Positions 45,714-64,000 of a DNA stretch of 64,000 nucleotides are shown piece by piece. Made by a program: the position numbers and the translations under genes. Position 1 is the first letter of the stretch; each line of letters starts with the position of its first letter. The stretch spans positions 310,001-374,000 of the forward strand of contig NZ_CP136962.1 of the NCBI RefSeq assembly GCF_002863305.2, given 5' to 3'. The notes beneath the pieces are model-generated. The model searched no databases. It was not told where the DNA came from and saw nothing but the letters and a program-made list of their open reading frames with translations. Source of the stretch: Neisseria perflava. Lineage in GTDB: Bacteria; Pseudomonadota; Gammaproteobacteria; Burkholderiales; Neisseriaceae.

Positions 45714-46967
45714 ATGGCTTTGCTAATCCCCGATTTCGCACCAACGGAAAAATTGCCTGAAAGCAAGGAAAAATGGCAGGAAATTCACTGTGAGCTTATT
45801 ACGCCTATTTATGGCGGTGGTATTCAGGCTACTGTGCCTGATGTTTTGATGCCCATTCGTGCCACAGCGATTCGTGGTCAGTTACGCTTTTGGTGGAGGT
45901 TATTGGCACGGCAAAAATGGAATTTGAAAGAAAAAAATTTGCGTGAGGCGGAGTTTCGTTTGTGGGGAGGTATCGGTGAAGAAGCTGCTGCGAGTTTGGT
46001 GTTTTTGCGTGTGCTTGATGTATTAAATGTTAAACAGATTTCTTATTTTAAAGGCAGCTTGGATTCGTCTCTACCTTCAGATAAAAAAGTACGTTCGAAG
46101 AGTAAGAGTGATGATTTAAAACCTTATGCTTATGTTTTGTTTCCAATGGATAGTGAGGAAAAACGTGAAAAAACGTTATTGATTAAAGAGGGTTTGACTT
46201 GGACCTTGCAATGGCGTTTGAGCGAAAAGGCAAACGAAATAGATAGGCAACAGGTTTTGGAAACCTTACGCTGGTGGGTAAATTTTGGAGGGATTGGTGC
46301 ACGTACCCGACGCGGATGCGGTGCATTTATGGTTAAGGACAGTTCTAATCCTGTTTTCAAGCAGCCTTTGAGTATTGATGAGGTAATGCAGGCGGGTTGC
46401 AAGCTGGTATTACGCTCAAGTACTAATCATGCTTTAGTAGCTTGGAAAGACGCAGTTCAACGATTGCGTGATTTTCGGCAAGGTGTAGGTGTTGGGCGGA
46501 ATCATCCTTCATCTGATACGACGAAACCTGCCGGTCGCAGCCGTTGGGCGGAACCTGATGAAATCCGTCGTATAACGCGAACACATTCTGACCGGCACAG
46601 GCCGGAACATCCTGCCGGAGATTTATTTGCGCGTGGCGTATTCGGTATGCCGATTATTTTTCATTTTGTTGGCAGTGATGAGCCAGCAGATACAACGTTA
46701 CAGCCTAAATATAAGGAACGTATGGCCAGCCCTTTAATTATTCGCCCTGTTGGGGATGGCAAGGGAGGTTTTCAGGCTGCCGCATTGAGTCTCCCTTTGG
46801 ATAAGGTTTTAAATGTTTCTGTTGAGTTATTAGAAAAAAAACAAAAAAAGGGAAGTGGACATTCAGTAACATTGTGGTCAGAAAGTAAGGCGCGGCAGAT
46901 TAGGCCGTTAAGTGAAAATGGTGGTGGTAATCCAATTGATGCGTTTTTGAATTATTTTGCGAAATAA
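45714..46967 (+). CDS. cmr1: Type III-B RAMP protein Cmr1
   Basis: Caps the 3' end of the Cmr effector complex and contacts the target RNA. 417 residues. N-terminal RAMP with the family signature RATAIRGQLRFWWR at about 49-62, and a second RAMP-like part with FGGIGARTRRGCGAF (about 185-199), a glycine-rich loop. First gene of a six-gene operon, 19 bp before cmr2. Confidence 0.93.
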   Translation: MALLIPDFAPTEKLPESKEKWQEIHCELITPIYGGGIQATVPDVLMPIRATAIRGQLRFWWRLLARQKWNLKEKNLREAEFRLWGGIGEEAAASLVFLRVLDVLNVKQISYFKGSLDSSLPSDKKVRSKSKSDDLKPYAYVLFPMDSEEKREKTLLIKEGLTWTLQWRLSEKANEIDRQQVLETLRWWVNFGGIGARTRRGCGAFMVKDSSNPVFKQPLSIDEVMQAGCKLVLRSSTNHALVAWKDAVQRLRDFRQGVGVGRNHPSSDTTKPAGRSRWAEPDEIRRITRTHSDRHRPEHPAGDLFARGVFGMPIIFHFVGSDEPADTTLQPKYKERMASPLIIRPVGDGKGGFQAAALSLPLDKVLNVSVELLEKKQKKGSGHSVTLWSESKARQIRPLSENGGGNPIDAFLNYFAK

Positions 46968-46986
46968 AAAAAAGAGGAAAACTGAA

Positions 46987-48843
46987 ATGACTCAATATGT
47001 TTTAACCCTATCCATCGGTCCTGTGCAGGGATTCATTGCTTCGGCTCGACGGAGTCGGGATTTATGGAGCGGTTCTTGGTTGCTGTCAGAAATAGCAAAG
47101 GCAACTGCAAAGAGTTTGTTTGAAGCCGGAGCGCAGATGGTGTTTCCGTTTGTGGACGAGGCGACCAAAGACCGTTTAGAACCTTGTGACAGGATGGATG
47201 ATAATTTTTCAGTCGGCAACAAAATTCAAGTGCAAGTTGATGCAGTTGATGATGCCGCAGTACGCGGTTTGGTTGTACAGGCAAAAGCAGCGGCGCAGTC
47301 ACGGTTTGAAACCATCGCGCGTCAGGCGCGACAAGATTTGAACGCAGCTTTACGCGATGAAATTTGGCAGATGCAAATTAAGGATTATTTGGAAATCCAG
47401 GCTGCATGGGCAAAGATAACCGAAAAAGGTTATTCGGATGCAAGCCAACATACAGCATCAGCTTTGGCAGCGAGAAAAGCAACACGCGATTTTACGCCTG
47501 TGCATGCGGCTGATGCTTGGGATAAGCGGTTTATGTTGCCTAAATCCTCACTGGATGGCGCACGTGAAACCGTATTGCTGGAAAAAGTAAACGGCGATGC
47601 CGACTTGTCTGATGTGGCAAGACGCAAGCTTGGCTTGAGCCTATCCGAGCAGTTGGATTGTGTAGGGATTATGAAGCGTTTGGGAGGAAATAGCGAGCAG
47701 TTTACGCCTGTTACACGCGTGGCAGCAGATGCTTGGCTGCAAGATTTGCCTGAAAATGAGTTAAGCCAACTTCGTGATACATATGAGCCGTTGATTGCGC
47801 TGAATTTAGCAACACGCGTAAAAGGCAATCAAGGTGTTTATGCAGATTTTCCGTTTGACGCACAACTGCTGTACCGAAACCGTTTGGATGCGATTTTGTC
47901 GGACAATAAAAACAGCGCGGATGCATCGAAAAAATTATCAGATTTGAAAAATGTCCTAAAACCGATTTGGCACAAATATGGTGAACCATGCAGCTACTGG
48001 GCGATGTTGCTGGCAGACGGCGACCGCATGGGCGAGTTGCTGGATAGGGCAAAGACAATTGAAGAACATCAAATGATTACCGAGGCGTTGTCTTCATTTG
48101 CTGAAAGTGTACCTGCAAAAATGCGTGACTTTCAGGCGCAATGCGTATATGCAGGCGGCGACGATGTATTGGGCTTTGTTGCGCTGGATAAGGCGGTTGA
48201 TTGCGCGGATGCATTACGGCAAGCATTTTCAGACAGCCTGAAAAAAGTGTCAGATGTTTTGAAAGCAGAAAAAACGCCAACCTTGTCCGTTGGACTGGCC
48301 ATTTGTCACATCAGTACCCCCCTTGGCAATGTACGCCGTTTGGCAAAACACGCAGAAAAAGTGGCAAAAGGCGACAATTATCCTGCCAATCGGCAGCGTA
48401 ATGCGCTGGGCATTACCCTGTCCGTGCGTTCAGGTTCGGACAGCGATTGGCGTGTGCAATGGAGTGATGAAGCAGGTTTGGCAACATTTAAAAAATGGCA
48501 AAACCGGTATCAGAAGAAAGAAATCAGCAGCCGTATTGCCTACGACAGTCGCGATATCTTTATGCGTACGGATTTTCCGAAATCCGCTGATTTAACCTCC
48601 GAACTGCACCAAAATATCCGCCAAGCCGAGTTTACCCGAATGCTGGATAGGGCGCGGAATATGTCGGGTGGTGAATTGAAAGACGATGTAAAGAAAGAGT
48701 TGAAAGCCCGACTGGATGAGTTGCAACGACAACTTGGCAGCGAACACGCCGGCGCACTCAATATCTTCGCCACCGAGTTAATTATTGCCCGCTGGCTTGC
48801 AGCTAAAACACAAAACGATTTAGGACAGGAGGCGCAATCATGA
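46987..48843 (+). CDS. cmr2: Cas10/Cmr2 without HD domain, GGDD cyclase intact
   Basis: Large subunit of the III-B complex, predicted to make cyclic oligoadenylates on target binding. 618 residues from ATG 46987 (AGAGGA upstream), much shorter than typical Cmr2. It begins directly with the first palm domain, TLSIGPVQGFIASARRSRDLWSGSWLLSE (about 6-34). An N-terminal HD nuclease domain is therefore absent. The second palm carries YAGGDDVLGF with GGDD at 390-393, preceded by LLADGDRMGELLD. It overlaps cmr3 by 4 bp (ATGA). Confidence 0.94.
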   Translation: MTQYVLTLSIGPVQGFIASARRSRDLWSGSWLLSEIAKATAKSLFEAGAQMVFPFVDEATKDRLEPCDRMDDNFSVGNKIQVQVDAVDDAAVRGLVVQAKAAAQSRFETIARQARQDLNAALRDEIWQMQIKDYLEIQAAWAKITEKGYSDASQHTASALAARKATRDFTPVHAADAWDKRFMLPKSSLDGARETVLLEKVNGDADLSDVARRKLGLSLSEQLDCVGIMKRLGGNSEQFTPVTRVAADAWLQDLPENELSQLRDTYEPLIALNLATRVKGNQGVYADFPFDAQLLYRNRLDAILSDNKNSADASKKLSDLKNVLKPIWHKYGEPCSYWAMLLADGDRMGELLDRAKTIEEHQMITEALSSFAESVPAKMRDFQAQCVYAGGDDVLGFVALDKAVDCADALRQAFSDSLKKVSDVLKAEKTPTLSVGLAICHISTPLGNVRRLAKHAEKVAKGDNYPANRQRNALGITLSVRSGSDSDWRVQWSDEAGLATFKKWQNRYQKKEISSRIAYDSRDIFMRTDFPKSADLTSELHQNIRQAEFTRMLDRARNMSGGELKDDVKKELKARLDELQRQLGSEHAGALNIFATELIIARWLAAKTQNDLGQEAQS

Positions 48844-50003
48844 ACAGCTATTTTTTAGACGCACTTGCGCCGTTGGTATTCCGCAGCGGCAAACCGTTTG
48901 GAGCGCAGTCGGATACCGATGATATTCAATTTCCATTACCCTCCGCAGCAGCAGGTTTGGTACGCACGCAAATCATGCGGCAAAACGGTTGCGATTGGGA
49001 CGGCAAAGCACAAGGCAATCGGGCTAAGTTATCAGACGCACAAGTCGATGAATTACGTCAAATTGCCGTACAGGGCGCCTTTTTAGCAAAACAGGACATT
49101 TCAGACGGCCTGAAAATCCTATTGCCAAAACCTGCCGACGCCTTGTATTTGAAAAACAAAGAGACAGATAAAATCGAACTTGTCCGCCTTGCGCCGCAAG
49201 CCTTTGGCAGCGATACAGCGGCGGATTTCCCTAATGCCGATTTATTGTCCGTACAAATCCAATCGCCGATTAAAGGCAAACCTCAAAGTGGGGCAACATA
49301 TTGGGATTTGGCAGACATACTGGCTTGGCATAAGGGAGAAAAGTTGGGCTTTGACGATGTAAACAAACGCGGCGCACAATCTCTGCCGATTGAAACGCGT
49401 ACCCATGTCGGCATAGACCGAAAAACGCTTGCAGCCGAAGACGGACGTTTGTTTCAAACAGCCGCTTACGACTTTGCCGAATCGGCTCAGAAGCATCATC
49501 AGGGTTGGGAAAGCTACCGCTATGGTTTTATGATCCGTACCGTAGCCGATTTACAAGATAACAGCGTAGTGCGTTTTGGCGGAGAAGGAAGACTGTCGCG
49601 ACTGAATAAAATTTCAGACGACGTGTTCAAACAGCCCGAATACGCCTATACAAACGGATTGACGCTCACCTTGCTGACGCCTGCCTTGTTTGAAAAAGGC
49701 TGGCTGCCTGGCTGGTTGGACAGCCAAACCTTAACAGGCACACTCCCGCATACCAACCTGCAAGTTAAGCTCCGTTCAGCCGCCATAGACCGTTGGCTGC
49801 CCGTTTCAGGTTGGGATTTACAGCAGCATGCCCCGAAAGCCATGCGAAAAGCCGTTTCGGCTGGCGCAGTGTATTGGTTTGAAATACAAAATGGCAACCC
49901 GGCGGAGCTTACCCAAGCCCAATGGCAATCATTTAGCGACAACGAACAAGACCGGCGCGACGGCTTCGGTATTGGATTGATCGGTCCGTGGCAGAGCATT
50001 TGA
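48840..50003 (+). CDS. cmr3: Type III-B RAMP protein Cmr3
   Basis: Binds the crRNA 5' tag and contacts Cmr2. 387 residues. N-terminus YFLDALAPLVFRSGKPFGAQSDTDDIQFPLPSAAAGLVR is typical of Cmr3. A DUS is embedded in frame at 49100-49111 (encoding part of ISDGLK). 4-bp overlap with cmr2; about 50 bp and a second DUS before cmr4. Confidence 0.92.
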   Translation: MNSYFLDALAPLVFRSGKPFGAQSDTDDIQFPLPSAAAGLVRTQIMRQNGCDWDGKAQGNRAKLSDAQVDELRQIAVQGAFLAKQDISDGLKILLPKPADALYLKNKETDKIELVRLAPQAFGSDTAADFPNADLLSVQIQSPIKGKPQSGATYWDLADILAWHKGEKLGFDDVNKRGAQSLPIETRTHVGIDRKTLAAEDGRLFQTAAYDFAESAQKHHQGWESYRYGFMIRTVADLQDNSVVRFGGEGRLSRLNKISDDVFKQPEYAYTNGLTLTLLTPALFEKGWLPGWLDSQTLTGTLPHTNLQVKLRSAAIDRWLPVSGWDLQQHAPKAMRKAVSAGAVYWFEIQNGNPAELTQAQWQSFSDNEQDRRDGFGIGLIGPWQSI

Positions 50004-50055
50004 TTTTCAGACGGCCTGATTCCCTATTTCATATTTAAAACACAAGGAAAACAAA

Positions 50056-50961
50056 ATGAATACCCGAATTTTTCACCTACATGCCTTATCCGCCCTCCAC
50101 GTCGGCACAGGTCAAGGCATCGGCGCAGTAGACTTGCCCATTGCCCGCAGCCGCGCCACCAATCTGCCACTCGTCCCCGGCAGCGCGCTCAAAGGCGTAT
50201 TGCGTGATGAAGCCAAAGAAAAATGGCACTTAAACCAAGACGACATTCAAGCTCTGTTTGGCGCAGACAGCCAAGCCGATAAAGAAAATATTCATGCCAG
50301 CGCCGCCGCTTTTGGCGATGCACATCTATTGCTGCTTCCGATCCGCTCGTTTGCAGGAACAGTCGCCTTTGCCACTTGTCCCTTTATCTTGCAACGTTAT
50401 GCTCGCGATGTACGCGGCATGTTGTCGGGAATCCCAAAAGTACCCGCTTTAAAAGATAGCGCATCCGTGCCGGAAAACACCGTATTGCGCGTTTCAAGCA
50501 GTCAAATTGCATTGGAAGATTTGGACATCGGCAGCGAAACTGGCACCGAAGCCAAACAATGGGCAGAACACATTGCCGCCGCCGTTTACCCCGAAAACAC
50601 CGCAGACTATCAAGCATGGCGCGAACAGCTCTGCCAACGCTTCATTATCCTGCCCGACAGCACATTCTCCTTCTTAGCCGATACCGCGACCGAAATCCGT
50701 ATGCGCATCAGGATTGACCGCGAAACACGCATCGTCAAAGAGGGCGCACTCTGGTCGGAAGAAAACCTGCCGGCCGAAAGCGTACTGTACGGCATTTTAG
50801 CCATCGACAAATCGCGCCACAGCCGCAATGCCAAAAGCGCAGACGAGCTTTCCGCCTTGATTCCCGCAGGCGAAACCCAAATCCAGATTGGCGGTAAGCA
50901 TACAGTCGGACGCGGCCTTTGTCGTCTCGTACTTTCAGACGGCCTGACAAAAGGGGAATAA
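50056..50961 (+). CDS. cmr4: Type III-B backbone RNase Cmr4
   Basis: Multicopy backbone subunit that cleaves target RNA every 6 nt. 301 residues. LSALHVGTGQGIGAVDLPIAR contains Asp26, at the same position as the catalytic Asp of characterised Cmr4 proteins, so RNase activity should be intact. LPLVPGSALKGVLRDEA (about 37-53) and GGKHTVGRGLCRL near the C-terminus are the RAMP motifs. Ends in a DUS (50935-50946). One base before cmr5. Confidence 0.95.
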   Translation: MNTRIFHLHALSALHVGTGQGIGAVDLPIARSRATNLPLVPGSALKGVLRDEAKEKWHLNQDDIQALFGADSQADKENIHASAAAFGDAHLLLLPIRSFAGTVAFATCPFILQRYARDVRGMLSGIPKVPALKDSASVPENTVLRVSSSQIALEDLDIGSETGTEAKQWAEHIAAAVYPENTADYQAWREQLCQRFIILPDSTFSFLADTATEIRMRIRIDRETRIVKEGALWSEENLPAESVLYGILAIDKSRHSRNAKSADELSALIPAGETQIQIGGKHTVGRGLCRLVLSDGLTKGE

Positions 50962-50962
50962 C

Positions 50963-51331
50963 ATGCAACACATCCGTTCGCAAAAATATGCACAACGCGC
51001 ATTTGGGTTGATTCAAAAAGTCAAAGACAGCAACAAGCAAGTCAAAGAATACCGTACACTTGTATTGAATTTCCCCACCATGATCCTGCAATCAGGGCTT
51101 GCCCAAGCCATCGGCTTTTTACAAGCCAAAGGCAAAGAAGAGCACCTGCTCCTATTGGCACACATTGCCGAATTGTTGGGCGAAAACAAAGACAGCCTGC
51201 ACAAAAAAATCTTAGAAGCAGACTTATCGCACTATCAACTTCTTTCCCGCCAAGCCTTGGAAGCAGCTTCCAGCCTCAAGCGCTACACCCAAGCCCTGCT
51301 GCCCAAACCCAAAGACGAACAAGGGGAATAA
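50963..51331 (+). CDS. cmr5: Type III-B small subunit Cmr5
   Basis: 122-residue all-helical subunit forming the minor filament and contacting target RNA. KVKDSNKQVKEYRTLVLNFPTMILQSGLAQAIGFLQAK is the family-typical core. Between cmr4 and cmr6 with 1-2 bp spacing. Confidence 0.92.
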   Translation: MQHIRSQKYAQRAFGLIQKVKDSNKQVKEYRTLVLNFPTMILQSGLAQAIGFLQAKGKEEHLLLLAHIAELLGENKDSLHKKILEADLSHYQLLSRQALEAASSLKRYTQALLPKPKDEQGE

Positions 51332-51333
51332 TC

Positions 51334-52455
51334 ATGACCATATCACTCATGCGGGAAAGCCTGAAAAAACTTATTCCGGACGACCTGAAAGACGCACACG
51401 CCGGTTTGCTCATGCAGCGCGGCCTGACCGAGTGGGACAAAGACGACAAACAAGCCAAAGCAGACCTGATTCAAAAAATCGTCAAAATTCCCGCGCCCAA
51501 AAAAGACAGCCTGTACGCGCTCGCCTTTACGCGCTGGGTGCAGGCCACTTCCGATACCGGCCGTTTTGCCACGCTTGCCGCCAGCATTTCAGGCAGGCTC
51601 TATACAGGCCTCAACAGCGCAGGCGCACTGGAAACAGGCATCAGCACCAGCCATACCTACGGCATGCCGCTCCTTGCAGGCTCGTCCGTCAAAGGTATCG
51701 CCCGCAGCCATGCCGAAAGCATCGGATTGGATGAATCCCATCTGACCGTATTGTTCGGCGACGACAGCGACTCAGGCAGTCTGAAGTCAGGCGCACTCGT
51801 TTGGCACGACGCATGGTTCATCCCTGCCAACACCCCGCCCTTTGCCGCAGAAATCATTACCACCCACCACCAAGACTACTACAACGGCAAACAACTTGAA
51901 GCCGACGAAATGGAATCCCCCATTCCCAACCAGCAAATCGCCACACAAGGCAGCTTTTATTTCGTCATCGAAAGCGCACCGGGCGCGCAGGCATGGGCTG
52001 TATACGCCCAAAACCTACTGATTCAAGCCTTGCGGACACAAGGCGCAGGCAGCAAAACCGCATCCGGCTACGGCTATTTCACAGAAGCAGCCGAAGAAGC
52101 ACAACGAAGCATCCGCAACATTCAAGAAGCACAAAACCAAGCCCTGGCCGCGCAACAAAAAGCCGCCGAGCTTGCCGCCATGCCCGCGCATCAGCAGTTT
52201 ATCCAAACATGGCAAGAAAGAATGGAGGAGCAACCAAACAAGATCATAGGCAACCAAGCACACGACAAACTCTATCAAGAATGGAAGGCAGCCCTACAAA
52301 CTGCCGCAGAAAGCCCCGATTTGAGCGCAGAGCAGAAAGCCGAAATCGCCGTTGCGTTTGCCGTCAAAAAGATGATGACAAAATACGCGAAATGGCTGAC
52401 CGACAAGCGCGGAAAAGATCTGAAACCCATCTTAGCGAAGCTGCGCGGCGAATAG
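51334..52455 (+). CDS. cmr6: Type III-B RAMP protein Cmr6
   Basis: Terminal RAMP next to Cmr1. 373 residues: RAMP core with GRLYTGLNSAGALETGISTSHTYGMPLLAGSSVKGIARSHAE (about 88-129) and LRTQGAGSKTASGYGYF (about 233-249, glycine-rich loop). An additional C-terminal helical extension (about 255-373, AEEAQRSIRNIQEAQNQAL...) is longer than in many Cmr6 proteins. Last gene before the leader of array 1. Confidence 0.92.
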   Translation: MTISLMRESLKKLIPDDLKDAHAGLLMQRGLTEWDKDDKQAKADLIQKIVKIPAPKKDSLYALAFTRWVQATSDTGRFATLAASISGRLYTGLNSAGALETGISTSHTYGMPLLAGSSVKGIARSHAESIGLDESHLTVLFGDDSDSGSLKSGALVWHDAWFIPANTPPFAAEIITTHHQDYYNGKQLEADEMESPIPNQQIATQGSFYFVIESAPGAQAWAVYAQNLLIQALRTQGAGSKTASGYGYFTEAAEEAQRSIRNIQEAQNQALAAQQKAAELAAMPAHQQFIQTWQERMEEQPNKIIGNQAHDKLYQEWKAALQTAAESPDLSAEQKAEIAVAFAVKKMMTKYAKWLTDKRGKDLKPILAKLRGE

Positions 52456-52709: not shown

Positions 52710-54143
52710 GTCGGAAGACTTGCCCCACTAATCGGGGATTAAGACGTAGAATACGAAACTGAAACCCGTCACTACGCGTCGGAAGACTTGCCCCACTAAT
52801 CGGGGATTAAGACTACTGGGTCAGGTACAGGGTGCGGTACGAGGTGTGTCGGAAGACTTGCCCCACTAATCGGGGATTAAGACCGCAAGCAAGACGTATT
52901 GGTTGACGACGAAGGTCGGAAGACTTGCCCCACTAATCGGGGATTAAGACACCACAGTAGAGTCATATTCAAAATCAGGATAAGTCGGAAGACTTGCCCC
53001 ACTAATCGGGGATTAAGACTCTTCGAGACGTTCTACTTCCTTGACGAGAGTGTGTCGGAAGACTTGCCCCACTAATCGGGGATTAAGACCGAGAAAGCTA
53101 AAACTTTAGCTGCCTCCTTCGGGTCGGAAGACTTGCCCCACTAATCGGGGATTAAGACGTTGGACGACTACACGTGTCATGCAAACAGCACAGTCGGAAG
53201 ACTTGCCCCACTAATCGGGGATTAAGACCTGGCAAGACATCTACATAAAGGTACCATTTTCCTGTCGGAAGACTTGCCCCACTAATCGGGGATTAAGACT
53301 TACCAGCCTTTACAGACTCCACACGTTGTACCGTCGGAAGACTTGTCCCACTAATCGGGGATTAAGACCTGAAGGAAGTTTTGGGCGCGTTGAGCTGCTG
53401 CGTCGGAAGACTTGCCCCACTAATCGGGGATTAAGACGACGTACACAGTCGAAGCAATACGCGTCGATTTGGTCGGAAGACTTGCCCCACTAATCGGGGA
53501 TTAAGACGGTAAGATGTCCTACCTTGTAGTGCACCATTGATAAGTCGGAAGACTTGCCCCACTAATCGGGGATTAAGACAGCCTACTTGCAACCAGTTTT
53601 CACCCAGTTGGATGGTCGGAAGACTTGCCCCACTAATCGGGGATTAAGACCCAAGGTTTAGGTGCTACTGCAGGAATCACTTTGGTCGGAAGACTTGCCC
53701 CACTAATCGGGGATTAAGACCGTGCCACAGTTTCGCGGCCCAGAGGTGAGTTAATCGTCGGAAGACTTGCCCCACTAATCGGGGATTAAGACGCTACGAA
53801 GAGCAGGCAAATGATGACCATCGCAATGTCGGAAGACTTGCCCCACTAATCGGGGATTAAGACAGATTACGGAATGCTTGGTAAAATGCTTTTTTAGTCG
53901 GAAGACTTGCCCTACTAATCGGGGATTAAGACACACTGGATACTTCCAATTTAGTGTCCAAGCGACCGTCGGAAGACTTGCCCCACTAATCGGGGATTAA
54001 GACGCCACGATGTTGCGCATATCCTGCGCCAAGTCCGCGTCGGAAGACTTGCCCCACTAATCGGGGATTAAGACCCGTTTTCGTTTCTCATTCGTGCGCC
54101 GCAATGCGTCGGAAGACTTGCCCTGCTAACGTTGGGGACGAGT
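52710..54143 (+). CRISPR. CRISPR array 1: 20 full repeats, 1 degenerate, 20 spacers
   Basis: 36-nt repeat starting GTCGGAAGACTTG and ending ATTAAGAC (the expected 8-nt crRNA 5' tag), with an inner CCCC-ACTAATC-GGGG stem. Full repeats start at 52710, 52778, 52848, 52915, 52984, 53054, 53123, 53193, 53264, 53333, 53402, 53472, 53544, 53615, 53685, 53757, 53828, 53897, 53968 and 54039. Spacers are 31-36 nt. Repeat 10 has one C-to-T change (CTTGTCCC) and repeat 18 another (GCCCTACT). The last copy at 54108 keeps only its first 16 nt, marking the leader-distal end. Leader on the left. Confidence 0.98.
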
Positions 54144-54426: not shown

Positions 54427-54705
54427 TTACAGTGTGCCGAAGTTGCCCAATATGATGCCTTCGGGCAGGGCGGTTTGCCCCAAAGTATGGATGATGCTGC
54501 TGTTGGCCAGTGGGTAGAAGCGCAAGTCATCCTGTTTGGGATGGAGCATTCGGCATAGTTCTTCAAAGCATTGCCGGGCTTGTTCACGGCTGCCGATGTG
54601 CAGGAATATGCTATTTTGCAGGGGGATGGCGTGCTGGATTAGATAGCGGTGTGCTTTTTGCAGGCGGCGCGGGTCTGAGATGTCGTAGGCGATAATGTGG
54701 CGCAT
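54427..54705 (-). CDS. cas2: CRISPR integration protein Cas2
   Basis: 92-residue Cas2, central dimer of the Cas1-Cas2 integrase. MRHIIAYDISDPRRLQKAHRYL has the conserved Asp (Asp8) of the first strand, and LQNSIFLHIGSREQARQCFEEL follows. The frame is open 82 codons further upstream only because it overlaps cas1 sequence. The ATG lies 2 bp after the cas1 stop. Single-domain, no fusion. Confidence 0.95.
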   Translation of the reverse strand: MRHIIAYDISDPRRLQKAHRYLIQHAIPLQNSIFLHIGSREQARQCFEELCRMLHPKQDDLRFYPLANSSIIHTLGQTALPEGIILGNFGTL

Positions 54706-54707
54706 TT

Positions 54708-55685
54708 TTACTCCAATGTAATGAGTTCGCTTAATTGGATTTCCGGCTTGCCGCTGTATTGGGCGAGGGCGGCTAAATAATCGGTGCAGAGCCGGTGGAT
54801 GTGTTTTCTCCATTGTTTCGCTGTTTGTTCGTATGCCGGATAAAATTTGAGCCGTGCGTTTTTGTTCATCATGCAGCCTTGCGCGGTGGTGGAAAAGTCG
54901 GCAGGTGTCAGGGTTTGTTGATGAAACAGGGAAAGTACCCAGGCATCGCATTGGCCGCGCAGGTGTTCCAATAAATCGCAGGCAAGCGATTCGCGGCCGT
55001 GTTCAGGCTGGTGGTAGTAGCCGATAAAGGGATCCAAGCCGCTGAGGTAGAGGTGTTTGACGATGTCGAAGTGCAGCAGGGTGTAGGCGAGGGATAGGGT
55101 GGCGTTGACCGGGCCGCGCGGCGGACGTTTGTTTCGCCCTGAAAATTGCCAGTTTTGGGGCAGTATTGCCGCCCATGCGCCAAAATAGCGTGCCGCGGCC
55201 GCTCTTTCTATGCCACGTAAGCCGGGGATGTCGCTGATGTTTGCAAGGGTGTCGATAAGATTGGACAGGGCTTGGCTGTGCTCTTTCAAGCAATCTGCGT
55301 TCAGGCCGTCTGAAAATGCCATTTGCTGCAAATGTTGCAGTTGGGCAGATAGTTTGGCGGCGACTGTGTTTCTGGCGGCGGTAAGGCTTGCGCTTTTATC
55401 TTGCGACAGGGCATATTGTGCCATGCGCCTTTGTCCGTCCAGTTTCCAGTTGGGCAACATGAGGGCAGGGCGTTTTTGCCGTCCGCTCAATATGAGTACG
55501 CCGATGCCGGTCTCTCCCAGTTTGCCTAAAACCTTGGCCGATAGCGTTAAATCCCCGCGGATGCAGACGCGCTGTAAGATTTTCAGCGGGACGGTCGCTA
55601 CTCTTTTATCATTTTCATAGCATACCAAAGCGCTGCTGTCTGCACGCAGGGAAAGGTTTTTGCGGTCTAGGTAGAGGGTGGTCAT
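54708..55685 (-). CDS. cas1: CRISPR integrase Cas1
   Basis: Integrates new spacers at the leader-repeat junction. 325 residues from ATG 55685 (MTTLYLDRKNLSLRADS). Metal-binding set: Glu160 in GIERAAAARYFGAW, His225 in YYHQPEHGRESLACDLLEHL, and Asp237 in the same motif. No reverse transcriptase fusion. A DUS lies inside the gene at 55303-55314. The ATG is 2 bp after the stop of the upstream unknown gene, so cas1 is the fourth gene of its operon. Confidence 0.95.
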   Translation of the reverse strand: MTTLYLDRKNLSLRADSSALVCYENDKRVATVPLKILQRVCIRGDLTLSAKVLGKLGETGIGVLILSGRQKRPALMLPNWKLDGQRRMAQYALSQDKSASLTAARNTVAAKLSAQLQHLQQMAFSDGLNADCLKEHSQALSNLIDTLANISDIPGLRGIERAAAARYFGAWAAILPQNWQFSGRNKRPPRGPVNATLSLAYTLLHFDIVKHLYLSGLDPFIGYYHQPEHGRESLACDLLEHLRGQCDAWVLSLFHQQTLTPADFSTTAQGCMMNKNARLKFYPAYEQTAKQWRKHIHRLCTDYLAALAQYSGKPEIQLSELITLE

Positions 55686-55687
55686 GG

Positions 55688-56281
55688 CTATGCACTCCGT
55701 TGTTTTTTGCGCTGTTCCAAATTCAAAAACCAAGTCTGCCCTTTGTTGCCGCAACGTAGGCGAATGTGTTGCTTTAATTCGCCGGTTTGCTGGTTTAGCC
55801 GTTTGACCTCTTGATATAAATTGTCTTTTTCGGCTTTTTGTTTGTCTTTTTCTTCAAACAAGGCACGGCGGTAGGCATTGATTTGTTTCAGCTCTTCGAT
55901 GATCCGGATAATGGCTGCACGGTTTTTTTGCCCTTTGGCAAAAGCCAAATCGCGCTCCAGGCTCAATTTTTGCTGTTTGACGTTGTTGAGCATGGTGCTG
56001 ATGGACCTCAGGCTGATTCGGGCATCGTCCAAAAGCTTGTAGGCAGCATTGGCAATTTGCACTGATGAGTAGTGCATTTCCACCAAGTAATGAAAATTGT
56101 AGCTGCTTTGCGCTTGTCGGATGTGTCGCTCAATCTCTTTTCGGCGTTTCGATACGGTTTTTTCTACCGATTTGCTTTTTTTGTGCCAATCGCGCTGAGC
56201 TTGTTGTTCTTCTTCGGTGACGGAGTTATAAATCCACGCACCTACACCCACGGCAGCTAAAACTGGTAATACCCAAATCAT
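55688..56281 (-). CDS. TM-anchored coiled-coil protein, third gene of the cas1 operon, unknown
   Basis: Not recognised. 197 residues from ATG 56281 (MIWVLPVLAAVGVGAWIYNSV). One N-terminal membrane helix (about 2-20), then a long charged, probably coiled-coil body (KKSKSVEKTVSKRRKEIERHIRQAQ; RRALFEEKDKQKAEKDNLYQEVKRLNQQTGELKQHI), ending basic (EQRKKQRSA). Its stop TAG is separated from the cas1 ATG by two bases, so it is co-transcribed and probably translationally coupled with cas1. It may anchor a complex at the inner membrane; no function is claimed. Confidence 0.75.
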   Translation of the reverse strand: MIWVLPVLAAVGVGAWIYNSVTEEEQQAQRDWHKKSKSVEKTVSKRRKEIERHIRQAQSSYNFHYLVEMHYSSVQIANAAYKLLDDARISLRSISTMLNNVKQQKLSLERDLAFAKGQKNRAAIIRIIEELKQINAYRRALFEEKDKQKAEKDNLYQEVKRLNQQTGELKQHIRLRCGNKGQTWFLNLEQRKKQRSA

Positions 56282-56291
56282 GCTTTTCTCC

Positions 56292-56819
56292 TTAGATTGC
56301 AATTTTTTGAAGGTCCACGAGCGGCAAATTTTGTTTGGCTTGTTCTAATTGTCTGCCTGCATGTTGGCCCAACTCTATTGAACAACTCAAGTACTGTAAT
56401 GCCGCCTCATGCTGCAGGCGTTTCTCCTCGAGTGACGTTTCAGGGCGAAGGGCAGCCTTTTGTGTTTCCTCTGCCATTTTCATCACGGTCTGTCGTTGGT
56501 CGTGAATAGATGAGAGCTCGCGGTGCACGGCCTCGTAACACGCCATTGCTTCTCCCCTGCGGTTTGACAAATGCGCCATTTGCAGCTTGAAATTCTTGTC
56601 TATGGCATCGTGCGCGAGTCGGGCTTGCTCTTCAATCCGCAATTCTTCCATTTCCAACCGTTTGATATCGGTACGGTAGTCCAGCGTTCTGTTGTAGGAC
56701 TCGGCAATCGCTCCGATTAAGTTGGTGGCTTGTGCAAAGCCCAGCAATCTGCCGCCCGTGTTCATGGGGATCACATTATTCATTTTGCCGAAGGGTAAGG
56801 TTGGTATTTTAATGCTCAT
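56292..56819 (-). CDS. Coiled-coil protein, second gene of the cas1 operon, unknown
   Basis: Not recognised. 175 residues from ATG 56819 (MSIKIPTLPFGKMNNVIPM). Short Gly/hydrophobic part (NTGGRLLGFAQATNLIGAIAESYN, about 20-43), then helical charged sequence with a likely coiled coil (about 44-140). A 45-bp tandem duplication gives a second in-frame ATG at 56864 with the same GGAGAAAAC Shine-Dalgarno and the same first four residues (MSIK), so a 190-residue form is possible. Confidence 0.7.
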   Translation of the reverse strand: MSIKIPTLPFGKMNNVIPMNTGGRLLGFAQATNLIGAIAESYNRTLDYRTDIKRLEMEELRIEEQARLAHDAIDKNFKLQMAHLSNRRGEAMACYEAVHRELSSIHDQRQTVMKMAEETQKAALRPETSLEEKRLQHEAALQYLSCSIELGQHAGRQLEQAKQNLPLVDLQKIAI

Positions 56820-56901
56820 GTTTTCTCCGTTTCTTGAGTTGTCTTTTGGTGTTTTGATGCTCATGTTTTCTCCTTTTCTTGAGTTGTCTTTTGGGGTTTC
56901 A
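56812..56901. repeat. 45-bp tandem duplication over the start region of the coiled-coil gene
   Basis: Copy 1 at 56812-56856 and copy 2 at 56857-56901 both contain ATGCTCATGTTTTCTCC and TTCTTGAGTTGTCTTTTGG with few differences. On the minus strand each provides a ribosome-binding site and ATG. The 45-bp unit equals 15 codons, so both starts are in one frame. Confidence 0.85.
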
Positions 56902-56904
56902 GGA

Positions 56905-57312
56905 TTATTCGCGCGGTGAAGTCAACGTATGGGCGATTATTCCTCCTGCCGCACTGCCAACCGCAGCCCCTGTTCCTGCAACAACGGCTGTACCCAGCGC
57001 CATGCCGCCGCCGCCGACTGAAAGTGCGCCGCCACCCAGTGCGGCCAGCGAGGCATTGGTTGCCGCAGCACCGGACAGCGAGCTGATGGCAACGCCGGTT
57101 GTGGCCGTATTTCCCAGTACGCCTGTGCCGCCCAGTACAGTGGCAATCGTTCCTGCATTCGACCATGCCGCCATACCGCTCGTGGCTACGTTCACCGCCA
57201 GCGATGTGGCAACCGGATGCTCTTCGGCAAACTCGCCTACTGCAATGACTCCGTCCATTACACAGTCGATGCCTTCGCCTACCAAGTCAAAAATATCCTC
57301 AAAAAATCCCAT
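56905..57312 (-). CDS. Glycine/alanine-rich hydrophobic protein, first gene of the cas1 operon, unknown
   Basis: Not recognised. 135 residues from ATG 57312 (MGFFEDIFDLVGEGIDCVMDG), with GGAG upstream. After an acidic amphipathic N-terminus, residues 35-130 are almost entirely small or hydrophobic, with glycine-zipper-like runs (SLAALGGGALSVGGGGMALG, GTGAAVGSAAGGIIAH). This suggests two or more membrane-inserting helices or an oligomeric pore/scaffold. Ends TLTSPRE. It leads an operon that continues through two coiled-coil genes into cas1-cas2. Confidence 0.7.
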   Translation of the reverse strand: MGFFEDIFDLVGEGIDCVMDGVIAVGEFAEEHPVATSLAVNVATSGMAAWSNAGTIATVLGGTGVLGNTATTGVAISSLSGAAATNASLAALGGGALSVGGGGMALGTAVVAGTGAAVGSAAGGIIAHTLTSPRE

Positions 57313-57988: not shown

Positions 57989-58951
57989 ATGCCATTTTTT
58001 ATTCACATATCCGTCATGAATCCGCTTGACCTTCCCTCGGAATTGCCCATAGCCCGCTATCGGTTAACCTTTACGCTGACACAAAATTTACAGCTTCCCC
58101 CTTATGCGGCTTCGACCCTGCGCGGTGTATTCGGGCATGCACTTTTGGCAGCCGCCTGCACCTGCCCCATAGACCAAACGCCGCATCTTTCAGGCTGTCC
58201 GTATGCGCAAATTTTCGAGCCGGCGCCCCGTGCCGATTTACCCAGCAGCGTGCGCCAAAATCCGCCGCCGCCTTATGTGGTCGAAACGCCGTTATTCGCG
58301 CCCACGCATTTTCCCGCCGGTGCCGATTATTCGTTTGATTTGGTACTGTTTGGACAGGCACGGCACAGCCTGCCCTTGATTGGCGCCGTATTTGCCCAAG
58401 CCTTTGCCAAAGGGCTGGGTGTAAACAATACCGGCAAAGGAGAATTAACAAGCATCGCCGTGCAACAGGCGGACGGCAGTTTTCTGATGATTGCAGGGCG
58501 CGGTGGCCTCATCGGGCAACATCATAACAGCATCAAGCTACCCGAATACTATCCTGCGCAGGCGCGTATACAGCTGCTCACCCCCTTGCGTATCCAGCAA
58601 AAAGGCAGGATTTTGCGCGAGAACGAAATGACTCAGGCAATTTTTCTGCGCCAACTTATGCGCCGCTATCTGACGCTTGCCCGGCTTTATTGGCAAAACA
58701 ACGCCGACACGGCCGAGCTGACCGTACAAGCCGCAGGACAAGGACAGTCTCCGCAGCTTTTATGGCACGAACACCGCCGCTTTTCCAACCGTCAAAAGCA
58801 AACTACGCCGTTGAGCGGCATCATCGGAACATGGCAATTGACCGACCTTTCCCCCGCTTTCGCACAAATGCTGTATATCGGGCAATGGTTGCATTTGGGA
58901 AAAGAAACGGTATTCGGCAACGGGCAGTACCGCATTATTCGGACACTGTAA
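57989..58951 (+). CDS. cas6: crRNA-processing endonuclease Cas6
   Basis: Cuts the repeat to give crRNAs with an 8-nt 5' tag. 320 residues, or 311 from the second ATG at 58016 (MNPLDLPSELP). Two ferredoxin-like halves. YAASTLRGVFGHALLAAACTC (about 39-59) and a cysteine-rich stretch (CTCPIDQTPHLSGCPY) match the longer Cas6 variants with a zinc-like Cys cluster. The C-terminal glycine-rich loop HLGKETVFGNGQYRI (about 302-316) is diagnostic. The only processing enzyme in the window, so it must serve both arrays. Confidence 0.9.
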   Translation: MPFFIHISVMNPLDLPSELPIARYRLTFTLTQNLQLPPYAASTLRGVFGHALLAAACTCPIDQTPHLSGCPYAQIFEPAPRADLPSSVRQNPPPPYVVETPLFAPTHFPAGADYSFDLVLFGQARHSLPLIGAVFAQAFAKGLGVNNTGKGELTSIAVQQADGSFLMIAGRGGLIGQHHNSIKLPEYYPAQARIQLLTPLRIQQKGRILRENEMTQAIFLRQLMRRYLTLARLYWQNNADTAELTVQAAGQGQSPQLLWHEHRRFSNRQKQTTPLSGIIGTWQLTDLSPAFAQMLYIGQWLHLGKETVFGNGQYRIIRTL

Positions 58952-59075: not shown

Positions 59076-60023
59076 AAAGCCATCAAAATTAGATGGGGCA
59101 AGTCTTCCGACTTGATGAAGAAGTGGGTTAAGAAAACGGCTGACAAGTCTTAATCCCCGATTAGTGGGGCAAGTCTTCCGACGCATTGTTTTTGAGCCAT
59201 TCTTTATCAGCAATGAGTCTTAATCCCCGATTAGTGGGGCAAGTCTTCCGACAATACGAAGGTGAGTAAGCAATGAAGAGACTACTGTCTTAATCCCCGA
59301 TTAGTGGGGCAAGTCTTCCGACGCAATCATTCTTAGAGAAACAAAAACAAATGTTAGTCTTAATCCCCGATTAGTGGGGCAAGTCTTCCGACATAACTCA
59401 AATATTGAAACACAAGTTTTTGAAGAAGTCTTAATCCCCGATTAGTGGGGCAAGTCTTCCGACGCGGTAAAGTATGCTACAAAGAACGCTTTGAAGACGT
59501 CTTAATCCCCGATTAGTGGGGCAAGTCTTCCGACTTGGAATGGAAAATTTTATGGTGACGACAAACGGTCTTAATCCCCGATTAGTGGGGCAAGTCTTCC
59601 GACCCTTGGTTAGAGAAGTATGTAGATTAAGGCATAAGTCTTAATCCCCGATTAGTGGGGCAAGTCTTCCGACGTATCCGCAAGACCATGCGAGCCAGCC
59701 GACTGGCGTCTTAATCCCCGATTAGTGGGGCAAGTCTTCCGACGCCGAGAAATTGGGCAAATAACCATCAAACCATGTCTTAATCCCCGATTAGTGGGGC
59801 AAGTCTTCCGACCTGTTCAAATCTGCTGCTTCTATAGCAGAGACTTTGTCTTAATCCCCGATTAGTGGGGCAAGTCTTCCGACTTCAACAAACGACCATC
59901 TGCAAATGCTATCAAAGTCTTAATCCCCGATTAGTGGGGCAAGTCTTCCGACGTAAGAGAAGAGTGGGTTCTGGCTGAAAGAGCTAGGTCTTAATCCCCG
60001 ATTAGTGGGGCAAGTCTTCCGAC
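59076..60023 (-). CRISPR. CRISPR array 2: 13 full repeats, 1 degenerate, 13 spacers
   Basis: Same 36-nt repeat as array 1 but on the minus strand (seen here as GTCTTAATCCCCG ... GTCTTCCGAC). Full repeats start at 59147, 59217, 59287, 59357, 59428, 59499, 59568, 59638, 59708, 59777, 59848, 59917 and 59988. Spacers are 33-35 nt. The leftmost copy (59076-59111) keeps only its last 22 or so bases, marking the leader-distal end. The full repeats look identical to each other. Leader on the right. Confidence 0.98.
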
Positions 60024-60263: not shown

Positions 60264-61520
60264 TCAGTTTGTCAGGATTTTCAGCGATTCTTTGTTGACG
60301 GCGATGATGATTTGGATATTTTTGGCGGCGCAGTTGCGCTCGAATGCCGTCCATTGCTGCGGCTTTGCATTGTTTTTAATGACGGGCGACAAAATCAGGA
60401 CGCGGCGCACTTTGCCCATGTTGAGGCTTTGGTCGATCACTTGCCTTAGTGGGTCTGCCAGCTTGCTTTCGGAGCTTAAATCGGATTTGAGCTCGCAAAA
60501 AATCAGTTGGTTTTTACGGAACAGCAAAATGTCGGTTTCGTTGCCCTTACTTTCTCCTTGTATCAGTTGCAAACCTGTCTCCAGTTCTTCGTCTTTCACG
60601 CCGTTTTCTTTCAACCATGTGTAAATGAGTTGTTCAAACCAGTCGCCGCTTATCCATTTTTTCCAATAGTGAGTTTGGGTTTTGTTTTTTTTGTATTTGA
60701 TGGGTAGGATCAGTCCTTTTTCGTCTAGGCGGATTTGGTCTTGTGGGTCAATCAGGTTGATCAGCCTTTCAAGAAAGGGTTTGAGCTCGTCGGGTTGTGC
60801 AAGCCCGAACGCTTGCCATTCAAGCAGGATTTCTTTTTGGTCTTTGGGATATTTTTGTGTCCATGCGTTTTCCAATACGGGCATAACGGCGGGGAACAGA
60901 TTGCCGTTTTCAGGCTGCTTCATGTTTTGGGCGGCAAAACGCATTTGGGCAAGGGGCAGGCTGTCGGGATGCTTGATAATGGGGTTGGGGCTATGTTCGC
61001 CGATTTCGTCGGCATAGAGTTTCAAGCCGTCGCGCAGGGAAAATCGGTTGTGTAGGACGATTTCGTCCAGAAATGCCAGGTTGTCGGGATTGAGGCGGTC
61101 TATGTGGATTTGGTTGCTGCTGCGTTGGAAGGCTTGGTAGTGCATCTCCTGCCATATGCCGGTCTGGGCGGCAAGCATTTGGGACAGGATTTTTGTGCCG
61201 CCTGTGATGTTGAGTATGGCGTTTTTGGCAATGCGGTGTTCGGCGCAGTAGGCTTTGAAGACGGTTTGCAGCCAACTTTGGATTTCTTTGGTTCGTTCGC
61301 CGAAGAGCTTGCCGCCGCTTTGAAAACCGAGTTCATGGATTTTGCCGTGAAATTGCTCGCTTTGCTCCAGTGTGTTTTTGAAACGGATATGCGCGTTTTT
61401 TCCGGCCACCCAGTCGGTGACGATGAGGTGGACGTTTTGGGGCTGCAGGTGTAGGCAGGCGCGGTATTCGGCGATATTGTGTTCGGAGAGGATGATAAAG
61501 TAGTGTTGGATCTGTGACAT
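60264..61520 (-). CDS. card1: Card1/Can2-type (DUF1887) CARF nuclease
   Basis: Predicted cyclic-oligoadenylate-activated ancillary nuclease of the type III system. 418 residues. The N-terminal CARF domain (about 1-140) has the ligand-site motif LNITGGTK at 103-110. The C-terminal PD-(D/E)xK nuclease has GDWFEQLIYTWLKE (Glu296), GNETDILLF (Asp330) and FCELKSD (Glu343-x-Lys345). Known DUF1887 relatives respond to cA4 and cut single-stranded nucleic acids or nick DNA. Here it would respond to the GGDD cyclase of Cmr2. The gene lies on the same strand as, and upstream of, leader 2. Confidence 0.88.
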   Translation of the reverse strand: MSQIQHYFIILSEHNIAEYRACLHLQPQNVHLIVTDWVAGKNAHIRFKNTLEQSEQFHGKIHELGFQSGGKLFGERTKEIQSWLQTVFKAYCAEHRIAKNAILNITGGTKILSQMLAAQTGIWQEMHYQAFQRSSNQIHIDRLNPDNLAFLDEIVLHNRFSLRDGLKLYADEIGEHSPNPIIKHPDSLPLAQMRFAAQNMKQPENGNLFPAVMPVLENAWTQKYPKDQKEILLEWQAFGLAQPDELKPFLERLINLIDPQDQIRLDEKGLILPIKYKKNKTQTHYWKKWISGDWFEQLIYTWLKENGVKDEELETGLQLIQGESKGNETDILLFRKNQLIFCELKSDLSSESKLADPLRQVIDQSLNMGKVRRVLILSPVIKNNAKPQQWTAFERNCAAKNIQIIIAVNKESLKILTN

Positions 61521-61586
61521 ATGGTTTCGCTTTGCTTGAGGGTTTCAGACGGCCTGAAAAAGGTTTGCCGCGCCGGTATGTTTCTT

Positions 61587-64000
61587 TTATTTGAAGTTAA
61601 ACGGTAAACAGGCTTTTAATGCGGCAAGTAGCTTTTCTGTCTCGGCTTCGCTTTGTTGCAGGACTTGCAGGGCTGCATGAGGTGCTTGGGGAAGCTGTGC
61701 TTGCAGGCAGGCGGCTTCGGCGGCAATGGGGTAAGGGCAGGATTTGCCTAAGCCGAGCCTTTCTGCCAAAACGGCTGTTACCAGTGCAATCCATTTCAGG
61801 GTCAGGCCGTCTGATTCTTCATTTAGGGCAAGGTTAAAGGCTTCTGAGGCGATATAGTCGTTGCCTGCAAAGTGTGCCAGCCAGCCGCGCCATAGCTGGA
61901 TAAGCTGCCATGGGTGTCCTGTGTCGCTCTGCCAGTTTGCTTCGTTGTTTAAATAGGTTTTTTGTGCGGATGCGGTTTGCTGCGGATAGGCGGCAAACAG
62001 GCGCAATAATGTATGGTGGGTAAAACGGTCATCCGGGCTGACTGAGAATTTTTTGGCGGCTTTGTCTAAGTCGTTTCCGAAAACGGATGTGGCAAGCGGC
62101 TGTATATTTTCCCATTCTTCTCCTGCGTCCAATGCATTGTGCAGTTGGTACAGGCTGGTTTGACAAATGTCTTTTTGCGCTGCGGCCGGATCGGATAATT
62201 TTTTAAATGTTTCGACCGCTTGGTCGAAGAAGGATGCGGCGGTTTGGTGTTCTCCCAAAAAGGCGTATACCTGCCCCATACCTGATTGCAACCTGCCGTA
62301 TTGTTGTCGTCCGACAGCCATTTCAGACAGGGTGAGCGCGTGTTCTAAAATTTGTTTGGCGTAGTCGAATTCGTATATGTTGGTGGCGGCTACGGCCAGG
62401 CGGTTATATACCTGCGCGACTTCCGGAGCGGCTTCCTGCTTCAGGGCGTTGCCGAGGTCAAGCAGGTTTTGCACGGCTTCCATGCGCATCCTGCCTTGGT
62501 GGTTGTCGGCCGCAAGCCGGGCTGCTTGAAAACGTAGTTGTAATAGTGGCGGCAGTTTGTTTTCTGCCGGGGCGTAGGTTTGCAGCCAACCTAAGATTTC
62601 GTCCAGGTCTTGTGGACGGTAATCTTTTTCGTTCAGGCGGAGGCGGACTGTTTGTAAATAGTTTTGCCAAATTTCAGGCTGCGTTTTGCAACGTGAACCG
62701 AGTTGTTGCATGGCTTCTCGCAATAGGCTGTGTTCTGGTTCGTCTGACAGGCAGCAGACTGCTTTGAACCACTCTTGCGACGACAAGGCTGTCTTGCCAT
62801 CCAGTGCGGCGTAGATGCGTTCTAATTCGCCGCTCTCGGGCGTAAGGAAACAATGCCCTTTGAATTTGGCATTGGTCAGACGTTTTTTGGCAGAGGAGCC
62901 ACCCCAGCAGTGTGCCAGTGCATCTACATGGGCAAGATAGGGATGTTCGCCTTTTGGGACGATTTCTAGAGATAAAGTCAGTTGGCTGAAACGTGTTTCA
63001 TCTATGCTTTGTAATTCGCTTTGCAGTAAATGTTTTAAAATCTGTAAATCGGTCGCGGAGTTGAAGTCGCCGCGTTGTTCAATAAATACACTCACTTTTT
63101 TGTCGCCTTCGTTAGGCAGGGGTAATAGGCGTAAAGTAAGTTGCAACAGACGGTACACACCGCTAAACCAGCGCGGGCGGTTGAAGGAAAGCGGATCTTT
63201 GGCTGTGATACCCAGTACGCCTACCGGTTGCGAGAGAATGTTGTTGATGACTTTATCCAGCAGTTCGGGTTTTTCTTCCGCTGCGTGGAATGTTGCTGGC
63301 AGTTTGTCCAGTTTGGCTTTTCCTTTCGGAATGACCAGTGCAACGTATCGGCCTAAGCTGTGGTCGTTTATGGATAAACTTTCTGCATGTTCAAACTCTT
63401 TGCCTGTTTCGTCAATGACGATTTCCCAGTCGGCATTTACAGGAAGGTGGCGCAGGCTGTTGGGGTGGTGTTTGCTAAATTGGGGCGTTTGTACTGCACA
63501 GTCTTGTGTGTGGACGAAATTTTTTTTCTTGTCTTTTCGCTTGTTGAGTTTGCTCAGTGTGAAGGATAAGTGATCTTTGATGCGTTGGCTTAATTTTTGG
63601 TGAGTTTGTTGCTCATCAAACCAAGCCTTTAGGGATGTCTGGTCGCCTTTTTTGAACAGGGTTTCTAATTCTTGAGCCAGCAGACGGGCACGTTCTCCCT
63701 GTTGTTTACATTGTTGGGCGCGACTTGCCAATTCTTTACTGCGTTGCGCAGCGAGGTAAAGGAGCTCTTTTACTTTTTCTTGGTTGTCTTTGCTGTCTAA
63801 GCCCCATGAGGTAATTTTGAAAATTTCAAATAGCAGTGCACCGTCCTTCATACCTTCAGACGGATTGTTTGGCTGATTGGTTTGTTTTTTGGTAGAGGGA
63901 GAGGCTGCGTCCTGTTGTTTTTTTTCGGGTTGTACGAAAGAGGACAACGCGTGTTTAAGATCGATAGATTGTCGTGTTTGTCCGTCCAACCATTGTTGAG
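61587..64000 (-). CDS. Large TPR-repeat protein next to card1, N-terminus outside window
   Basis: Not a recognised CRISPR family. At least 804 residues; the frame is still open at 64000 (QQWLDGQTRQS...), so the true start is outside. The N-terminal part is polar and helical (to about 180). Residues about 188-385 contain WEIVIDETGKEF, VSVFIEQRGDF and YLAHVDALAHCWGG, spaced like the Asp/Glu/Asp strands of DUF3800-type RNase H-fold proteins. From about 470 to 740 there are TPR-like helix pairs (VYNRLAVAATNIYEFDYAKQILEHAL; YGRLQSGMGQVYAFLGEHQTAASFFDQAVETF). It stops 66 bp before card1 on the same strand, so the two are probably co-transcribed. Confidence 0.7.
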   Translation of the reverse strand, partial: QQWLDGQTRQSIDLKHALSSFVQPEKKQQDAASPSTKKQTNQPNNPSEGMKDGALLFEIFKITSWGLDSKDNQEKVKELLYLAAQRSKELASRAQQCKQQGERARLLAQELETLFKKGDQTSLKAWFDEQQTHQKLSQRIKDHLSFTLSKLNKRKDKKKNFVHTQDCAVQTPQFSKHHPNSLRHLPVNADWEIVIDETGKEFEHAESLSINDHSLGRYVALVIPKGKAKLDKLPATFHAAEEKPELLDKVINNILSQPVGVLGITAKDPLSFNRPRWFSGVYRLLQLTLRLLPLPNEGDKKVSVFIEQRGDFNSATDLQILKHLLQSELQSIDETRFSQLTLSLEIVPKGEHPYLAHVDALAHCWGGSSAKKRLTNAKFKGHCFLTPESGELERIYAALDGKTALSSQEWFKAVCCLSDEPEHSLLREAMQQLGSRCKTQPEIWQNYLQTVRLRLNEKDYRPQDLDEILGWLQTYAPAENKLPPLLQLRFQAARLAADNHQGRMRMEAVQNLLDLGNALKQEAAPEVAQVYNRLAVAATNIYEFDYAKQILEHALTLSEMAVGRQQYGRLQSGMGQVYAFLGEHQTAASFFDQAVETFKKLSDPAAAQKDICQTSLYQLHNALDAGEEWENIQPLATSVFGNDLDKAAKKFSVSPDDRFTHHTLLRLFAAYPQQTASAQKTYLNNEANWQSDTGHPWQLIQLWRGWLAHFAGNDYIASEAFNLALNEESDGLTLKWIALVTAVLAERLGLGKSCPYPIAAEAACLQAQLPQAPHAALQVLQQSEAETEKLLAALKACLPFNFK

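Follow-up and report, generated by a model that had tools for sequence, protein, structure and literature searches.

A candidate three-part membrane cassette beside cas1-cas2 in a type III-B CRISPR locus of Neisseria perflava

Genes A, B and C upstream of cas1-cas2

The stretch of Neisseria perflava DNA analysed here (the window; 64,000 nucleotides of contig NZ_CP136962.1, positions 310,001 to 374,000) carries a type III-B CRISPR (clustered regularly interspaced short palindromic repeats) locus in which three genes, called A, B and C below, precede cas1 and cas2 on the minus strand, the whole series being placed between two convergent arrays (Table 1). A sequence-only reading had described these genes as a minus-strand operon running into cas1 with two bases between the last stop and the cas1 ATG, and cas2 next. 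This description held. The three open reading frames (ORFs) were confirmed on the minus strand in that order, and the codons read place the stop of C at 55688-55690 and the ATG of cas1 at 55683-55685. The distance between the cas1 stop and the cas2 ATG (start 54705) is also 2 bases, B and C are 10 nt apart, and A and B are separated by 85 nt, or by 40 nt with the upstream start of B. This second start at 56864 arises from a 45-bp tandem duplication, and B homologues of both sizes, 190 and 175 amino acids (aa), with or without the extra 15 residues, exist in the database. Terminator-like sites were not found on the minus strand from A to the end of cas2, in a scan whose total number of sites was not above that of shuffles.

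Gene A encodes a glycine- and alanine-rich protein with a strongly conserved core (..TGVAISSLSGAAATNASLAALGGGALSVGGGGMALG..), and a near-identical relative carries the name Neisseria subflava in the protein database. The AlphaFold2 model of B is a helical hairpin (pLDDT, the per-residue confidence, 80; pTM, the predicted template modelling score, 0.48), and that of C is a bundle of long helices (pLDDT 87, with the initial ten residues below 50). The transmembrane anchor of C that had been proposed is a prediction from hydropathy: in the seven copies compared, the most hydrophobic 19-residue segment is the N-terminal one, with a Kyte-Doolittle mean of 1.3-2.5 (1.52 in the window).

The three genes had also been regarded as unrecognised, which stands for B, with no convincing family match, but not for the other two. 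C matches PADLOC Unk_03 (PDLC01142) at 5.7e-27 over ORF residues 8-199, nearly the whole protein, and A gives a partial match to PADLOC PDC-M09A (2e-10). In Pfam, NCBIfam and PHROGs there were zero family matches for A, next to none for B and only weak ones, below cut-off, for C. Pfam, NCBIfam and PADLOC showed no CARF or SAVED sensor domain in any of the three proteins, and a sequence search of solved structures gave no convincing match. A relationship of A with the interferon-induced Ifi-6-16 proteins was not supported, as A and three relatives matched no Pfam family at E <= 1. Among 5.8 billion proteins (E <= 0.001, fragments and near-identical copies included), there were 20 matches for C, 12 for B and 218 for A; the A core is therefore widespread, and the other two proteins are rare. 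The longest contigs carrying relatives of A and B are equal in size (39063, 45920, 205572), as are those of A and C (750856), co-location being inferred here from size alone.

Table 1. Features of the type III-B locus (positions in the window).
Feature	Position	Strand	Remarks
Gene A	56905..57312	-	135 aa, glycine-zipper-like hydrophobic protein; from the ORF list; 142 aa if ATG 57333 is used
Gene B	56292..56819	-	175 aa, predicted coiled-coil hairpin; 190 aa if alternative ATG 56864 is used
Gene C	55688..56281	-	197 aa counted from its ATG; a hydrophobic N-terminal segment precedes a bundle of long helices
cas1	54708..55685	-	Pfam Cas_Cas1 3.4e-72
cas2	54427..54705	-	Pfam Cas2 1.6e-15; start from sequence reading
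45-bp in-frame tandem duplication	56801..56890	-	93% identical; covers the start region of B
cas6	57989..58951	+	Pfam Cas6 4.8e-12, PADLOC 1.7e-79; divergent from gene A
CRISPR array 1	52710..54074	+	20 repeats, 19 spacers, then a degenerate repeat; leader end at left
CRISPR array 2	59147..60023	-	13 repeats, 12 spacers; leader end at right
cas10/cmr2	46957..48843	+	TIGR02577 2.8e-49
cmr4	50056..50961	+	TIGR02580 2.7e-63
cmr3, cmr5, cmr6	other ORFs within 48840-52455		names from position only
CARF-PD-(D/E)XK nuclease	60264..61520	-	PDLC01899 1.8e-258

Distribution of the B-C pair

Seven kinds of site with the B-C pair were found, of which five adjoin cas1-cas2: the whole A-B-C cassette lies there in three CRISPR loci, and the B-C core alone in two more. 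Besides the window (A-B-C-cas1-cas2), these are a metagenome-assembled genome of Methylovulum (NZ_JAQTZU010000031; L004, genome G469), where B (1011-1553) and C (1563-2186) are followed by cas6, cas1, cas2 and an array from 5001, and the genomes G689 (L042; A-B-C-DUF1232-cas2-cas1), G545 (L043; B-C-DUF1232-cas2-cas1-array, with 38 repeat copies) and G666 (L044; B-C-A-cas2-cas1, C being a weak match). Outside the window, the pair recurs next to cas1-cas2 in four CRISPR loci, and A is present in two of these, which supports the sequence-only reading. The remaining sites are a contig of G268 (L020) and small mobilizable plasmids of Escherichia and Salmonella (2.2-2.8 kb). The Unk_03 profile is also matched by the C proteins of a plasmid (1.6e-21), G689 (2.6e-20) and G666 (only 0.0039).

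The loci of G689, G545 and G666 are type III-C loci, in genomes of the same taxonomic order as Methylovulum. Their large subunits match Cas10c at 1.9e-72, 6.1e-65 and 1.3e-74, respectively, with a Csx11 match below cut-off. All three keep an HD motif near the N terminus and contain none of ten variants of the cyclase motif. On the other hand, the Cas10/Cmr2 of the window has the cyclase motif GGDD and no HD in its first 60 residues, according to motif scans. This protein used as query found no counterpart in five carrier genomes, Methylovulum included, a search that is insensitive since three of the five do have Cas10c. Type III-C is described as having a Cas10 without cyclase site and no known effector (PMC11229360).

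Cas1 is 26-35% identical between the window, Methylovulum and the III-C group, and 69-92% within the latter. The association of B-C with cas1 therefore either goes back a long way or came about several times, and, given their high Cas1 identity, the three III-C loci are treated as a single lineage. In the order of Methylovulum, B was present in 4 of 311 genomes and next to cas1-cas2 in all four. Among 321 genomes drawn from the class of G469, B was found in G469 itself only. C occurred in one of 398 genomes of a phylum sample, namely G268, which was also the sole carrier among 78 genomes of its class, and in none of 46 genomes of the genus of the window (a search without positive control). The search for A in G469 and G268, again without positive control, gave no match. 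A scan of genome contigs with a single peptide pattern found one locus and is not a census. The lone match among 80 relatives (L001, E 8e-4) was an unrelated repeat protein and was not counted.

Free-standing copies of the pair are close to the CRISPR-linked ones, as the C proteins of Methylovulum and of the CRISPR-free G268 are 60% identical. The 19.9 kb read around the G268 pair gave no match to 13 window proteins apart from B and C. In PLSDB, C is present in 6 records, with B in five of them by tblastn and in the sixth by profile (6.8e-66), and the two plasmids read whole have no annotated cas gene. Among 5426 complete E. coli genomes, DNA of the pair was found in four, always plasmid-borne (one record of 4.9 kb). 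Also in support of the sequence-only reading, the phage records searched with A, B and C and the viral contigs searched with B and C held no relative.

Within the genus, four genomes encode a Cas1 about 48-53% identical to that of the window, one of them broken, and closer to it than any Cas1 from trio-bearing loci outside the genus. The 18-kb neighbourhoods of these four cas1 genes contain no match to A, B or C. The cassette is optional and sporadic in its occurrence.

Several details of these sites should also be noted. In pKST23 (L002, 95-1253) and in L003 (873-2031), B-C fills about 40-50% of plasmids of 2.2-2.8 kb, the sole other annotated gene encoding a helix-turn-helix protein, and one plasmid C is labelled as a YihA-family GTPase in its record. 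In G268 (L020, 16331-16798), the solitary B-C is preceded on its strand by a gene for a small protein that weakly matches the DnaJ central domain. The DUF1232 protein (Pfam) between C and cas2 lies at 10151-10492 in L043 and 1571-1909 in L042. Beyond the array, L043 (16491-19501) and L044 (1200-5654) have unnamed genes in common that look alike by eye, and the three tested had no Pfam match. A broken-looking cas1 in two pieces occurs in two genomes of the genus (G022, L024 8201-9326; G015, C1:2060830-2061731).

Kinship with PDC-M09 and possible function

PDC-M09 is an uncharacterised PADLOC phage-defence candidate, and its PDC-M09A protein holds at its centre the glycine-zipper core of A. A hhalign comparison of A with the PDC-M09A profile gave Prob 99.3 against 4.2 for the reversed control, the alignment covering just the glycine-zipper part of the profile. 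B aligned with the small coiled-coil partner of PDC-M09A with Prob 89 (E 2.3e-6, 21% identity, 71 columns). The controls gave Prob 0.2-0.3 with one side reversed and 74 with both reversed, and fewer sequences lowered the forward value to 41. C showed no detectable sequence relation to PDC-M09A (Prob 1.6, reversed 1.0). By these comparisons, the relation of A to PDC-M09A is clear and that of B to the small partner appears distant, so that we regard the trio as a split relative of PDC-M09 in two of its three parts, and not as a member. PDC-M09A forms a single chain of about 300-340 aa, whereas here the glycine zipper is a separate protein of 135 aa, the helical bundle is a protein of its own (C), and the set is located in a CRISPR adaptation operon.

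PDC-M09A proteins occur in two of 46 genomes of the genus, where the A core corresponds to their middle part. One of the two genes is followed by a small coiled-coil gene, and the other (G040) has no small partner behind it. The PDC-M09 pair is also found in G132 and on plasmids of Acinetobacter, Massilia, Vitreoscilla and Leptolyngbya, and the small partner lies next to PDC-M09A in six of seven aligned neighbourhoods. When the PDC-M09A proteins of two genomes were scanned, one showed a weak match to the model of alpha-xenorhabdolysin A (25.8 bits, cut-off 125), a lead only. Upstream of two PDC-M09A genes there is a small protein that looks TerB-like by eye (L026, 5583-5984; L031, 436-831); that of L026 had no Pfam, NCBIfam or PADLOC match.

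Other known systems show a more limited likeness. Unk_03 corresponds to C, but its model contains neither A nor B, nor the operon order, the recurrence in III-C or the plasmid pair. Cam1, Csx23, Cap1 and CorA are likewise small membrane proteins with genes in type III loci; unlike them, the trio has no sensor domain that was found, accompanies cyclase-less Cas10c and is linked to cas1-cas2. Against the tripartite alpha-pore-forming toxins AhlABC and SmhABC, the Z score lay within the background given by helical bundles; the trio differs in being encoded in CRISPR loci, and no sequence relation to them was shown.

Our best reading is that A-B-C is a cassette encoding a split, PDC-M09-like membrane effector that was recruited into the adaptation operon and is made alongside the spacer-acquiring Cas1-Cas2, which we hold tentatively, at somewhat less than even chances. 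This is close to the co-opted membrane effector that the sequence-only reading had named as one of its options, the one that fits best in view of the kinship of A and B to the PDC-M09 pair and of B-C existing free of CRISPR on plasmids and one chromosome. In such a mechanism, the N-terminal hydrophobic segment of C would anchor it in the inner membrane and leave the bundle of long helices on the cytoplasmic side, the coiled-coil hairpin of B would dock on C, and A would provide a glycine-zipper hairpin inserting into the membrane. On infection, these parts may assemble and then breach or depolarise the membrane, forming a putative pore. A cyclic nucleotide is unlikely to be the trigger, since the cassette also accompanies Cas10c without the cyclase motif. 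As partner, the adaptation complex would be most plausible, or else the ends of foreign DNA that it handles.

The trio could, on the other hand, be an accessory of spacer acquisition without any damage to the cell, in which C tethers Cas1-Cas2 at the inner membrane, the entry site of injected or transforming DNA, with A and B giving that site its shape. The trio genes are co-directional with cas1-cas2 at all five CRISPR sites, they are divergent together with cas1-cas2 from the effector operon in the three III-C loci, and they are common to III-B and III-C despite different effector chemistry. We nevertheless consider this rather unlikely, because B-C occurs without cas genes in the 19.9 kb of G268 and in both plasmids read whole, the candidate defence pair to which A and B are similar stands in four plasmid neighbourhoods that lack Cas1, and the four cas1 relatives in the genus manage without the trio. 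A module for autonomous defence or addiction that simply rides in the adaptation operon and is functionally unconnected with CRISPR would account for the stand-alone B-C pairs, for the closeness of the Methylovulum and G268 C proteins and for the sporadic presence. This also seems doubtful, as one would not expect a free rider to adjoin cas1-cas2 at five of the seven kinds of site, with three divergent groups of cas1.

Moreover, the trio could be an effector dependent on cyclic oligoadenylate and fired by Cas10. Membrane effectors of this kind, such as Cam1, Csx23 and Cap1, are known from type III CRISPR systems (PMC10808066, PMC11014256, PMC12642688), and the window Cas10 has GGDD. However, the missing CARF and SAVED matches, the company of three Cas10c proteins without cyclase motif and the position in the adaptation operon instead of the effector operon make this very improbable; the association with Cas10c makes it improbable that the cassette acts as a standard cyclic-nucleotide effector.

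Returning to the split membrane effector, its furthest-reaching form would be that the acquisition operons of III-B and III-C hold a dedicated membrane weapon of three parts fired by a state of Cas1-Cas2 and not by a cyclic nucleotide, which we judge unlikely as it stands. If true, a membrane effector would for the first time be seen wired to CRISPR adaptation, and cyclase-dead III-C would have its missing effector arm. The known type III membrane effectors are triggered by Cas10-made nucleotides. A III-B/III-C membrane cassette tied to cas1-cas2 would either be the first case of an effector being coupled to memory formation or indicate that acquisition takes place at the membrane. The uncharacterised PDC-M09 family would also gain a second, split architecture, and the minimal B-C pair is available for testing on an E. 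coli plasmid of 2.8 kb. Parts of the trio have been listed before, since C is Unk_03 in PADLOC and the A core lies within PDC-M09A. Among the open-licence papers that were searched, no description was found of the trio, of its link with cas1-cas2, of its presence in III-C or of its PDC-M09 kinship, although other papers could hold one.

Remaining features of the window

The two arrays share one 36-nt repeat, all their spacers are unique (19 and 12), and both open at an identical 11-nt leader end, AATTGAGTGCA. The window Cas1 retains the E and H/D motif residues. Past array 2, the minus strand (60264-63989) encodes the CARF-PD-(D/E)XK nuclease, likely the cyclic-oligoadenylate effector of this locus, and a protein of 800 aa that shows weak matches to TPR. 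Finally, the sequence GCCGTCTGAA, which we take to be similar to the DNA uptake sequence (DUS), is dispersed across the region.
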